Positions 29,841-39,841 of a stretch of DNA of 49,805 nucleotides are shown one piece after another. Position 1 is the stretch's first letter. Every line of letters starts with the position of its first letter. The position numbers were made by a program, and so were the translations under genes. The stretch is from Anaerolineales bacterium (GTDB lineage: Bacteria > Chloroflexota > Anaerolineae > Anaerolineales > Villigracilaceae): positions 1 to 49,805 of the forward strand of contig JAEURH010000011.1 in NCBI GenBank assembly GCA_016789365.1. Reading direction: 5' to 3'. The notes beneath the pieces are model-generated. The model ran no database searches, had not been told where the DNA came from, and saw only the letters and a program-made list of their open reading frames with translations.

Positions 29841-31496
29841 TTATGCTTTGCTCTTATCGTCTATCTTATCTTCAATGACGTTAATGACTTGGTCAACAAA
29901 CTTGCGAGTGGGTAACGAGCCTTTTTGATAGACCGCTTCAATTTGACCGTTGAGTCGTTTGCGTTCTTCAACGGTTATGTCTTTTGCGCTGACGACTACA
30001 ACGGGTATCTCTTTGGTGCGTGGGTCTAATTTTAATTCTTCTACAAGACCAAAACCATCAATCCCGGGCATGGTTAAATCGCTGACGATTAAATCAGGTA
30101 ATTTTTGTCTTGCAATCGAAAGCCCTTCCCAGCCATCTTTGGCATGATACATCCGATAATTTTTTCTACCTTCCAACAATCTGCGAATCAAAAGCGCGTC
30201 ATCTTCATTATCATCAACCAATAATACTGTGGTTGTGGTTTCATCTAAATTTTCAAGCGCGGCTTGCAAGCCTTCACGCGGTGCGGGGCTTTGGTCTTTG
30301 CTCAAATGCACATCCACTGCCCATTGCTCGCCCAACACATGTTTTTCGACAGGGAAGGTGTGACCCGTGCAATTGATGACGACTAACTCATCTTTGCTAA
30401 TGATACCTTGTTTTGATAGTTTCTCGAATCCGCCAAAGGCGACAGCGGTTGCTGGCTCGACAGCCATGCCTTCGCTTTTAGCCAGTGACTTCATGGCATT
30501 ATAGGCTTCTAAATCAGATACGGATTCCATCACGCCACCATATTGTTGGGTGAGATTCCATAAATAGGTATAAGTTTTGCCAGGGTCGCCAGTGGATAAG
30601 ATAATGATTCTTGTATCTGGCACAATGGGGTCGGCTACATCTTTGCCTGCTTTGAAAGCATTAACCATCGGCGCACAACCATCTGCTTGGATGATAGCAA
30701 GTTTGGGAATTTTATTTATCAACCCCATCTCATACATTTCTTTGAAACCTTGATAGACACCCATCGGTCCCATGCCACCGCTGACTGCTTGAATGTACCA
30801 ATCAGGTGCTTTCCAACCAAGCCCTTCTACAATTTCGTAGGCAATGGTTTTCATGGATTCACGGGCCGGTATAGAAGTTGCGCCTCTATCTAGCAACAAA
30901 TTTTTTCGTTGCGCAAATTGCGCCGCGATTTGCTTGGTTTGGTCGTAATTTCCGCTCACGCGAATCACTTCTGCGCCGAACAAAGCGGCTTCGCGCAATT
31001 TTTCTTGTGGCACAAGGCTGGTCATAAACACCCAAAGTTTTATACCTGCTCTGGCGCAAGCGGCGGCATAAGCCACTGCGGCGTTGCCTGTGGAGGCGAT
31101 AACTGCTTCGCGGATTCCGTTTTCGTTCATGGCGGCGACTGCTACTGCAGCTTGTCTGTCTTTGAACGAGGAGGTTGGGGAGTAGCGTTCGTCTTTGATG
31201 TAAACAGAATCATGCCCGAGGTCAGTGGCGAAGCGATGTGAAAGCCACAATGGAGTTCCACCAGCAGGATATAAATCTAAAGTAGATGGGTTTTCTAATG
31301 GCAGAATATCTTGATAGCGCCATAAGTTGTTGGGGCGGTTTGGAATGCCGCGCAAGATTTCGCGTTTGAAAGAATCGTAATCGTATTTTGCTTCAAGCCA
31401 TTGCGACTCGCATGTTTGACAAACAGCCGCTTCAAAGGGGATGTAGGGTTGCTGGTTGCCACAAACGGCGCATTGCAGGGTTGTTGGTTTTGCCAT
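29841..31496 (-). CDS. Threonine-synthase-like PLP enzyme fused to a receiver domain
   Basis: 551 residues. Residues 1 to about 400 are a fold-type II PLP enzyme of the threonine synthase group: an N-terminal zinc ribbon (Cys9, Cys12, Cys26, Cys29), the substrate loop GGTPLW, PLP Lys112 in SSFKDR, STGNAAVAYAA, the VSGGMGPMGVYQG phosphate-binding loop and INCTGHT. After a linker (about 400-422), residues 423-545 form a receiver: LLVDDNEDD, phospho-acceptor Asp473 in PDLIVSDLTMPGIDG, Ser503 and Lys525, so it appears competent. It lies 2 bases downstream of a giant histidine kinase and 11 bases before lone receivers. The inferred role is an enzyme whose activity or location is controlled by phosphorylation. 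Its true substrate is uncertain. Confidence 0.9.
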   Translation of the reverse strand: MAKPTTLQCAVCGNQQPYIPFEAAVCQTCESQWLEAKYDYDSFKREILRGIPNRPNNLWRYQDILPLENPSTLDLYPAGGTPLWLSHRFATDLGHDSVYIKDERYSPTSSFKDRQAAVAVAAMNENGIREAVIASTGNAAVAYAAACARAGIKLWVFMTSLVPQEKLREAALFGAEVIRVSGNYDQTKQIAAQFAQRKNLLLDRGATSIPARESMKTIAYEIVEGLGWKAPDWYIQAVSGGMGPMGVYQGFKEMYEMGLINKIPKLAIIQADGCAPMVNAFKAGKDVADPIVPDTRIIILSTGDPGKTYTYLWNLTQQYGGVMESVSDLEAYNAMKSLAKSEGMAVEPATAVAFGGFEKLSKQGIISKDELVVINCTGHTFPVEKHVLGEQWAVDVHLSKDQSPAPREGLQAALENLDETTTTVLLVDDNEDDALLIRRLLEGRKNYRMYHAKDGWEGLSIARQKLPDLIVSDLTMPGIDGFGLVEELKLDPRTKEIPVVVVSAKDITVEERKRLNGQIEAVYQKGSLPTRKFVDQVINVIEDKIDDKSKA

Positions 31497-38842: not shown

Positions 38843-39841
38843 TTAAGGTGAAACGAATTTATTGGTGAACATTGTGGATAAATCTACTGGAGCAGAAAGC
38901 ATACCAAACTCTATCAAAATGTCTTGAGTTACTTGCCACACATTTTCATCCATAGAGCCGATAGGGGCATTACCAGTATCAATGAAGGGGATTTGTGCCT
39001 GCATCACTTGCTTTTGGTAATCTAAATCAAGCGTTTCATCATACTTGACAGCAAATTCAGCCACTTCATCTGGGTTTTCAATGGCATATTGATACCCGCG
39101 CATCGTAGCGCGTATAAAGCGGGAGACTAAATCTTCATTGTTTTGTAAGTATTCTTCTGTGACAAAGATGGCGTTAATATATACATCCACACCGTAATCT
39201 TTGTAATATATCAAGTTGATTTCGTCGCCAACTTGGCGAGTCATCACTTGTTGGTCGGTGGCAAACATGCCACTCATGGCATCCATTTTGCCAGATTTGA
39301 TTTCGTTTGCGCCGAAGAAGTCTTCAATCAGCGCATATTTCATATCATTTTTTGCTAGCCCTGTGCGGCTCATAAAGGCGAGGAAGAGCAAATCAGAATA
39401 ACTGCTCAAGTCTAAAGAATATGTGCCAACTGTTTTGCCAACTAAATCTTGTGGCTTTTGAATAGCAGATGTCTTAAGCGATGTAATTGCAAGTGGATTT
39501 TCTCTAAAAATGGTAGCCACAGAAACAAAATTCTGTCCACCTGCCTTGGCAAGGATGAGACCATCTCCAGAGCCAATACCAAACTGCGAATTTCCATTGG
39601 CTACTTCATCTAATGGGTTGAGTTCAGGACCACCAGCATTTAATACCACTTCAATATTTTCTTCTGCATAGTAGCCTTTTTCAACGGCGGTGTAAAAGCC
39701 TGCATATTCCACGCCATGGAACCAACTTAATTGCACTGTAACTGTGTCTGCAGGTGCTGTTGAGGCGGTACTTCCACAGGCAGATAAAATAATTGCGACT
39801 ATCATTGCTACCCCAAATAAAACGTTCATTTTTTTATTCAT
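38843..39841 (-). CDS. NMT1/THI5-type substrate-binding lipoprotein
   Basis: 332 residues. A lipoprotein signal ends at LSAC (Cys22). The mature part is a periplasmic-binding fold of the NMT1/THI5 group: VQLSWFHGVEYAGFYTAVEKGYYAEENIEVVL, GNSQFGIGSGDGLILAKAGG, KPQDLVGKTVGTYS, AMSGMFATDQQVM and FIRATMRGYQYAIENPDEVAEF. Relatives bind pyrimidine or thiamine precursors, sulfonates or nitrate. No permease or ATPase gene is near; instead it sits between a receiver-GAF kinase and a dCache sensor, so it may be a sensory ligand-binding partner instead of a transport component. AAGGAG precedes the ATG. Confidence 0.88.
   Translation of the reverse strand: MNKKMNVLFGVAMIVAIILSACGSTASTAPADTVTVQLSWFHGVEYAGFYTAVEKGYYAEENIEVVLNAGGPELNPLDEVANGNSQFGIGSGDGLILAKAGGQNFVSVATIFRENPLAITSLKTSAIQKPQDLVGKTVGTYSLDLSSYSDLLFLAFMSRTGLAKNDMKYALIEDFFGANEIKSGKMDAMSGMFATDQQVMTRQVGDEINLIYYKDYGVDVYINAIFVTEEYLQNNEDLVSRFIRATMRGYQYAIENPDEVAEFAVKYDETLDLDYQKQVMQAQIPFIDTGNAPIGSMDENVWQVTQDILIEFGMLSAPVDLSTMFTNKFVSP

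Follow-up and report, generated by a model that had tools for sequence, protein, structure and literature searches.

A conserved fusion of a threonine-synthase-like PLP domain with a receiver domain in Chloroflexota

In a stretch of DNA from an Anaerolineales bacterium of the Villigracilaceae (GCA_016789365.1, contig JAEURH010000011.1, positions 1-49,805; all 49,805 nucleotides are hereafter called the window), a single open reading frame (ORF) at 29841-31496 on the reverse strand, with an ATG start and 551 residues, was found to encode a zinc-ribbon, threonine-synthase-like fold-type II pyridoxal phosphate (PLP) domain joined to a complete receiver domain. The reading that we favour, with a probability of about 0.62, is that of a response regulator with a PLP enzyme as its output. 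A kinase would phosphorylate Asp473 of the receiver and thereby change the activity of an enzyme that would descend from the threonine synthase family and use another amino-acid substrate, and the product would be handled by the proteins of partner genes.

Results

An enzyme domain and a receiver in one frame

In Pfam searches, PALP matched residues 78-378 with 232 bits (cut-off 35) and Response_reg matched residues 424-507 with 57.2 bits (cut-off 30.2), so that the C-terminal part can be counted as a receiver. The PLP domain displays the Schiff-base residue Lys112 within PTSSFKDRQ, the phosphate cup SGGMGP at 239-244, and TGHT (377-380) at the end of the domain. A first-pass annotation had described one frame fusing a PLP enzyme to a receiver, with Cys9/12/26/29, Lys112, Asp473, Ser503 and Lys525 as its key residues; the frame holds, and each residue lies where it had been placed.

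Distribution of the fusion

The genome of the window harbours a second full-length copy, 549 residues long and 49% identical, which lies directly after the gene of a 1103-residue hybrid kinase (a histidine kinase followed by two receivers). Among 298 genomes of the class, 123 of the listed matches, from 96 genomes, cover both domains in one frame. A further copy (G251), split into two rows by the search, is one intact frame of 587 codons, bringing the count to 124 intact copies in 97 of the 298 genomes. This number includes the copy in the window and is a lower bound, as four candidates were scored per genome. At least a partial match was present in 101 of the 298. The 11 partial rows comprise six that stop at contig ends, the two of G251, and three (G132, G259 and G261) with broken frames in which a receiver follows on the same strand. 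In a sample of the phylum, matches occurred in 34 of 301 genomes, and seven of these, from two families, lie outside the class. Among the class-genome matches, the phylum-sample matches and the partial rows that were checked, we found no clade member that was unfused.

We also scanned named genome contigs, taking the best 80 of 551 relatives, a scope that leaves room for other phyla. Titles of these 80 loci name Chloroflexota or groups placed there, some of which we take to belong to this phylum, and they include Herpetosiphon aurantiacus DSM 785 (a complete genome), H. geysericola and H. giganteus. The fusions of the named Herpetosiphon strains are 61-62% identical to that of the window. A contig of a metagenome-assembled genome titled Herpetosiphon sp. 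(DYDH01000084.1) carries a subfamily A fusion (subfamilies are described below) that is 83% identical, and this record may be mislabelled. None of 72,556 plasmid records covered 80% of the fusion at an E-value of 1e-20; the best partial plasmid match, from Nonomuraea, was an unfused synthase with the motifs RPYYAEGSKT and TGDGLKT.

The first-pass annotation had proposed a search for the same architecture in other genomes, and had named a misassembled junction and homologs that are always separate genes as findings that would speak against a real fusion. The architecture recurs in 97 of the 298 class genomes and in Herpetosiphon, the same junction is present in other assemblies, and the failure to find an unfused clade member removes the last of these objections.

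Conservation and phylogeny

Residues were tallied in 118 fused proteins gathered by domain search, with no selection for motifs. The four Cys residues, Lys112, Ser135-Thr-Gly-Asn138, the cup Ser239-Gly-Gly-x-Gly-Pro244 and Gly378-His379 are invariant in all 118. The same is true of Asp429, Asp473 and Lys525 in the receiver, while residue 503 is Ser or Thr in 118/118. In comparisons of the window gene with six relatives, the ratio of nonsynonymous to synonymous substitution rates (dN/dS) ranged over 0.026-0.069 in the enzyme part, with dS reaching 2.1. For the receiver, dS was computable in five pairs, which gave ratios of 0.015-0.043; in five subfamily B pairs dS was saturated. With low ratios in both parts, the enzyme half and the receiver half are both under purifying selection.

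A quick tree of 80 rows placed 60/60 fused enzyme domains in one clade (support of 100 in the Shimodaira-Hasegawa-like approximate likelihood ratio test, SH-aLRT). The stem of the clade measures 3.15 changes per column, and as the tree warns of long branches, its sister group is unsure. Within the clade, subfamily A, to which rows L015 and L025 belong, has a support of 100 and subfamily B of 98. Nine of the other ten fused rows have a second receiver and make up subfamily C (L126, L129, L130, L131, L139, L145, L147, L148 and L152), whose proteins of about 690-720 residues have a pair of tandem receivers following the enzyme domain.

At residues 525-526 (29919-29924), where receivers usually carry Lys-Pro, the fusion has Lys-Gly. 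The Gly is present in 112 of the 118 fused proteins, and Lys-Gly is also found in the last receiver of a B-type hybrid kinase in the genome of the window.

Linkage to a histidine kinase

Neighbouring genes were called mechanically. From the 80 genome-contig loci we left out L103 and L132, in which the fused frame is intact and the ORF caller chose a longer frame on the opposite strand instead, and 77 loci, mostly of subfamily A, had an upstream gene; some loci end early. From 41 loci of subfamilies B and C (B/C loci), L136 and L200 were left out of the counts, as the script gave no fused ORF.

A histidine kinase lies directly upstream on the same strand in 76/77 genome-contig loci, with a median gap of 2 nt, which is also the distance between the kinase stop codon and the ATG of the fusion in the window. 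An H-box motif was recognized in 73 of the 76 kinases; of the three in which it was missed, two are truncated fragments (132 and 178 residues). In the B/C loci, a kinase is directly upstream in 25/39. As a scale for this linkage, the genome of the window has 55 HATPase_c matches. The first-pass annotation had taken the position after a kinase to suggest control by phosphorelay. The linkage proved to be conserved, and together with the intact receiver it makes phosphorelay control of the fusion likely.

We infer the following mechanism. The kinase encoded 2 nt upstream would autophosphorylate at His1145, and the phosphate would move to Asp473 of the receiver. The phosphorylated receiver would then make the N-terminal PLP enzyme more or less active, the simplest route being a change in dimer or domain packing. 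The enzyme, of threonine-synthase-family descent, would use another amino-acid substrate, for which O-phosphohomoserine is an improbable candidate. The product of the enzyme would be taken on by partners that depend on the subfamily, namely an EamA-type exporter, an unfused PRK08197-type synthase or a GNAT acetyltransferase.

Effector or sensor

The first-pass annotation had left two possibilities side by side, a metabolic effector and a PLP-binding sensor module feeding the relay. As a sensor, the domain would bind PLP together with an amino acid in an external aldimine and in this way set the receiver's phosphorylation or phosphatase state, and the stand-alone receivers encoded downstream would be the real outputs. 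A receiver gene is indeed directly downstream in 67/77 genome-contig loci. In a tree of 112 receivers, built on few columns, the fused receivers cluster with six receivers that stand last in B-type hybrid kinases (SH-aLRT 97), apart from the 22 stand-alone receivers; the fused receivers thus look like relay receivers. L105, whose ORF start is over-extended, entered this tree under the label of a second receiver. A precedent for a PLP-enzyme domain serving as a sensor is provided by the MocR/GabR regulators, in which a fold-type I aminotransferase domain is attached to a DNA-binding domain and there is no receiver. On the other hand, every aligned active-site motif is invariant or nearly so, well beyond the PLP lysine alone, and adjoining transport and metabolic genes are better suited to an enzyme. 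Moreover, the gene directly downstream contains a receiver in just 10/18 B/C loci, and several of these genes encode a receiver-histidine kinase rather than a stand-alone receiver. The gene neighbours and the active-site invariance lean towards an effector, and we regard the sensor as rather unlikely.

Candidate partner genes were counted downstream of the fusion. Within four genes, the 77 genome-contig loci have an unfused threonine-synthase-like gene in 32 cases and a GNAT gene in 10, never together. The unfused synthase of L153 scores 585 bits with PRK08197 (cut-off 303). An EamA gene is present within two genes on the same strand in 12/38 B/C loci, and on the opposite strand in three more. 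The twelve same-strand EamA proteins are at least 37% identical to the one in the genome of the window; that genome has a total of about 12 EamA genes. Three of the twelve were scanned, and their sole NCBIfam hit at an E-value of 1e-8 was 'carboxylate/amino acid/amine transporter', below its cut-off.

Several observations weigh against a phosphorelay-controlled enzyme with partner genes and a substrate of its own. Each partner (EamA, the PRK08197 synthase, GNAT) is present in part of the loci only; neither the synthase nor GNAT occurs within four genes downstream in 35/77 loci, and EamA was found in none of the 77. A domain acting solely as a sensor that binds PLP and an amino acid would also keep the PLP residues. 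The fused protein of one Herpetosiphon locus (L121) falls short of the threonine synthase cut-off of TIGR00260 by only 0.2 bits. Finally, 14/39 B/C loci have no kinase directly upstream. The mechanical ORF call, contig ends and real absence may each play a part here, and unless the ORF caller missed a kinase, such loci call for a remote kinase or another form of control. One genus accounts for eight of the 14, and in four of these (L146, L194, L196 and L199) the fusion follows mtnA, the gene of S-methyl-5-thioribose-1-phosphate isomerase.

An enzyme related to threonine synthase

Could the fusion be a genuine threonine synthase under phosphorelay control? Among solved structures, threonine synthases come closest (2zsj, E-value of 2.6e-58 with the family profile; 1uim). 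Searches of the structure library with the whole protein, the family profile or residues 195-401 all returned threonine synthases first, with cysteate synthase (9k3c) behind. The best NCBIfam matches are threonine synthases as well, including the near miss of L121. The curated cut-offs, however, are not reached. Four fused proteins from three subfamilies, the window protein among them, were scored. Against PRK08197 (303) they reach 234.5-269.8 bits (window protein 244.1), and against TIGR00260 (167.1) 142.7-166.9 (window protein 159.8). The canonical threonine synthase (ThrC) encoded in the same genome passes TIGR00260 with 306.7 bits, as does a second unfused threonine-synthase-like protein, L003, with 175.1.

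The alignment points in the same direction. The segment NSxNPxR, which we take to be the binding site for the phosphate of O-phosphohomoserine, is replaced in the fusions by DxG, six residues, mostly R, K or I, and then E. In place of the PLP phosphate cup GNAGN or GGGTG stands SGG[LMI]GP, and the C-terminal TGxGxKD has become [ST]GHT. NSxNPxR and TGxGxKD are replaced in 20/20 fused rows and retained in both canonical ThrC rows. Because of the scores below curated cut-offs, the changed motifs and the separate ThrC in the genome, threonine synthase is an unlikely identity for the enzyme domain. The identity given in the first-pass annotation therefore could not be upheld, and we consider a threonine synthase under phosphorelay control improbable. 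The replaced substrate and C-terminal motifs and the sub-cut-off scores are rather read as those of a separate enzyme, predicted to act on another substrate with intact PLP residues.

The fusions share with ThrC (TIGR00260; PRK08197; 2zsj, 1uim) the fold-type II PLP domain, the lysine of SFKDR and the STGN loop, and the N-terminal Cys pairs are also seen in PRK08197-type rows. They differ from it in their scores, in the substrate loop, phosphate cup and TGxGxKD motif, and in the added receiver. Cysteate synthase (TIGR03844; 9k3c), which originated from threonine synthase, resembles the fusion in being a threonine-synthase-like enzyme with another substrate. The cut-off of TIGR03844, however, is 324.9, and the four fused proteins score 111.4-133.3 bits (window protein 124.5), which sets the fusions apart from cysteate synthase.

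The enzyme half might instead have lost catalysis and serve a nearby unfused synthase as a scaffold or regulatory subunit, as the 32 loci with such a gene could be taken to indicate. With the catalytic Lys invariant in 118/118, no unfused partner within four genes downstream in 45/77 loci (some of which end early) and none in the 18 B/C loci that were counted, this is very improbable. Nothing was found in favour of an artefact of assembly or annotation, or of a fusion by chance; such an origin was ruled out by the paralog in the same genome and by recurrence in many assemblies, including the complete genome of H. aurantiacus DSM 785, and retains a negligible probability.

Neighbouring genes in the window

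The features of the fusion and its surroundings are collected in Table 1. Downstream of the fusion, on the same strand, two CheY-like receivers are followed by a GNAT gene. Upstream, the NMT1/THI5-like protein heads the sensor cluster with no transporter genes directly adjoining and is perhaps a periplasmic sensor component; a substrate-binding protein gene upstream of a Cache sensor is likewise found in L054, L056, L070, L128 and L145. A repeat search of the operon gave just imperfect repeats of genes with related domains and short two-copy matches.

Table 1. Positions of the fusion gene, its parts and adjoining genes in the window.
Feature	Position	Strand	Basis and remarks
Threonine-synthase-like/receiver fusion gene, 551 aa	29841..31496	-	ORF; Pfam PALP and Response_reg
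Cys9/12/26/29, predicted zinc-ribbon type	31410..31472	-	All four Cys in 118/118 fused proteins
Fold-type II PLP domain, residues 78-378	30363..31265	-	Pfam, alignment
Inter-domain linker, residues 401-421	30234..30296	-	Located between Pfam matches; 90.5-100% amino-acid identity to six close relatives
Receiver, about residues 424-541	29874..30227	-	Pfam; acid pair Asp428/Asp429, phospho-acceptor Asp473, Ser503, Lys525
Probable cognate histidine kinase, 1376 aa	31499..35629	-	GAF x2, PAS x2, HisKA, HATPase_c; intact H-box His1145
CheY-like stand-alone receiver, 129 aa	29440..29829	-	Pfam
Second stand-alone receiver, 123 aa	29030..29401	-	Pfam
GNAT acetyltransferase, 289 aa	28160..29029	-	Pfam; an unfused PRK08197-type synthase takes its place in other loci
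GAF sensor protein, 437 aa	35644..36957	-	Pfam
dCache-HAMP-GAF sensor protein, 616 aa	36938..38788	-	Pfam
NMT1/THI5-like substrate-binding protein, 332 aa, candidate input component	38843..39841	-	Pfam

In the paralogous operon of the same genome (contig C177, L009:9622-15407), a ParA/MinD-type ATPase is encoded between the sensor genes and the hybrid kinase gene, and its frame overlaps that of the kinase. This order is repeated in L133, L134, L135 and L151, and the ATPase may position the signalling cluster. On L195 (1-4458), a ribonucleotide reductase frame with LAGLIDADG and intein-splicing domains represents an intein-bearing reductase.

Discussion

To our knowledge, response regulators with a metabolic enzyme as output are mentioned in censuses and have hardly been studied. 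The inducible lysine and arginine decarboxylases combine a fold-type I PLP enzyme with a wing domain of receiver-like (CheY-like) fold, and we know of no phosphorylation of this wing domain. In the open-access literature, searched by titles and the beginnings of abstracts, we found no paper on the fusion; subscription papers and domain-architecture databases lie outside this search, and an uncommented listing of the architecture may well exist.

Parts of the Galperin census present receivers attached to standard metabolic enzymes as a recognised kind of response regulator (PMC5847659). The fusion resembles these in that a receiver is placed on an enzyme, whose activity would come under environmental control (PMC5847659). 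No PLP enzyme is included among the archaeal receiver-enzyme fusions in the corresponding section of the census, and the words 'pyridoxal' and 'PLP' are absent from the text of the paper (PMC5847659). The archaeal fusions are described in that section as narrow in distribution, confined to a family or genus (PMC5847659); the fusion in the window, by contrast, has counterparts in many families of a class and in Herpetosiphon. The first-pass annotation had called a PLP enzyme unusual as an output; judged by these parts of the census, this stands for the output domain and does not hold for metabolic-enzyme receivers as a kind (PMC5847659).

A wider proposal can be built on the favoured reading, and we offer it as a doubtful speculation. 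The fusions would form an undescribed class of Chloroflexota response regulators in which a kinase, bypassing DNA and cyclic-di-GMP, directly switches a new enzyme, derived from threonine synthase, that synthesizes a small amino-acid compound. The product would be exported (by EamA, in subfamily B) or acetylated (by GNAT), and the system may in this way produce and secrete an amino-acid signal or protectant of its own.

Fusion genes annotated as threonine synthase by similarity alone would probably be mis-named. The family provides a large and strictly conserved case, with the residues of both halves intact, an adjacent kinase as the usual arrangement and cultured species (Herpetosiphon) among its carriers. 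It raises the question of which amino-acid reaction is controlled by signalling in the Chloroflexota, and whether phosphorylation of the receiver switches the PLP enzyme. That the fusion has been conserved in so many related bacteria suggests that the cell may switch an amino-acid reaction directly through phosphorylation.
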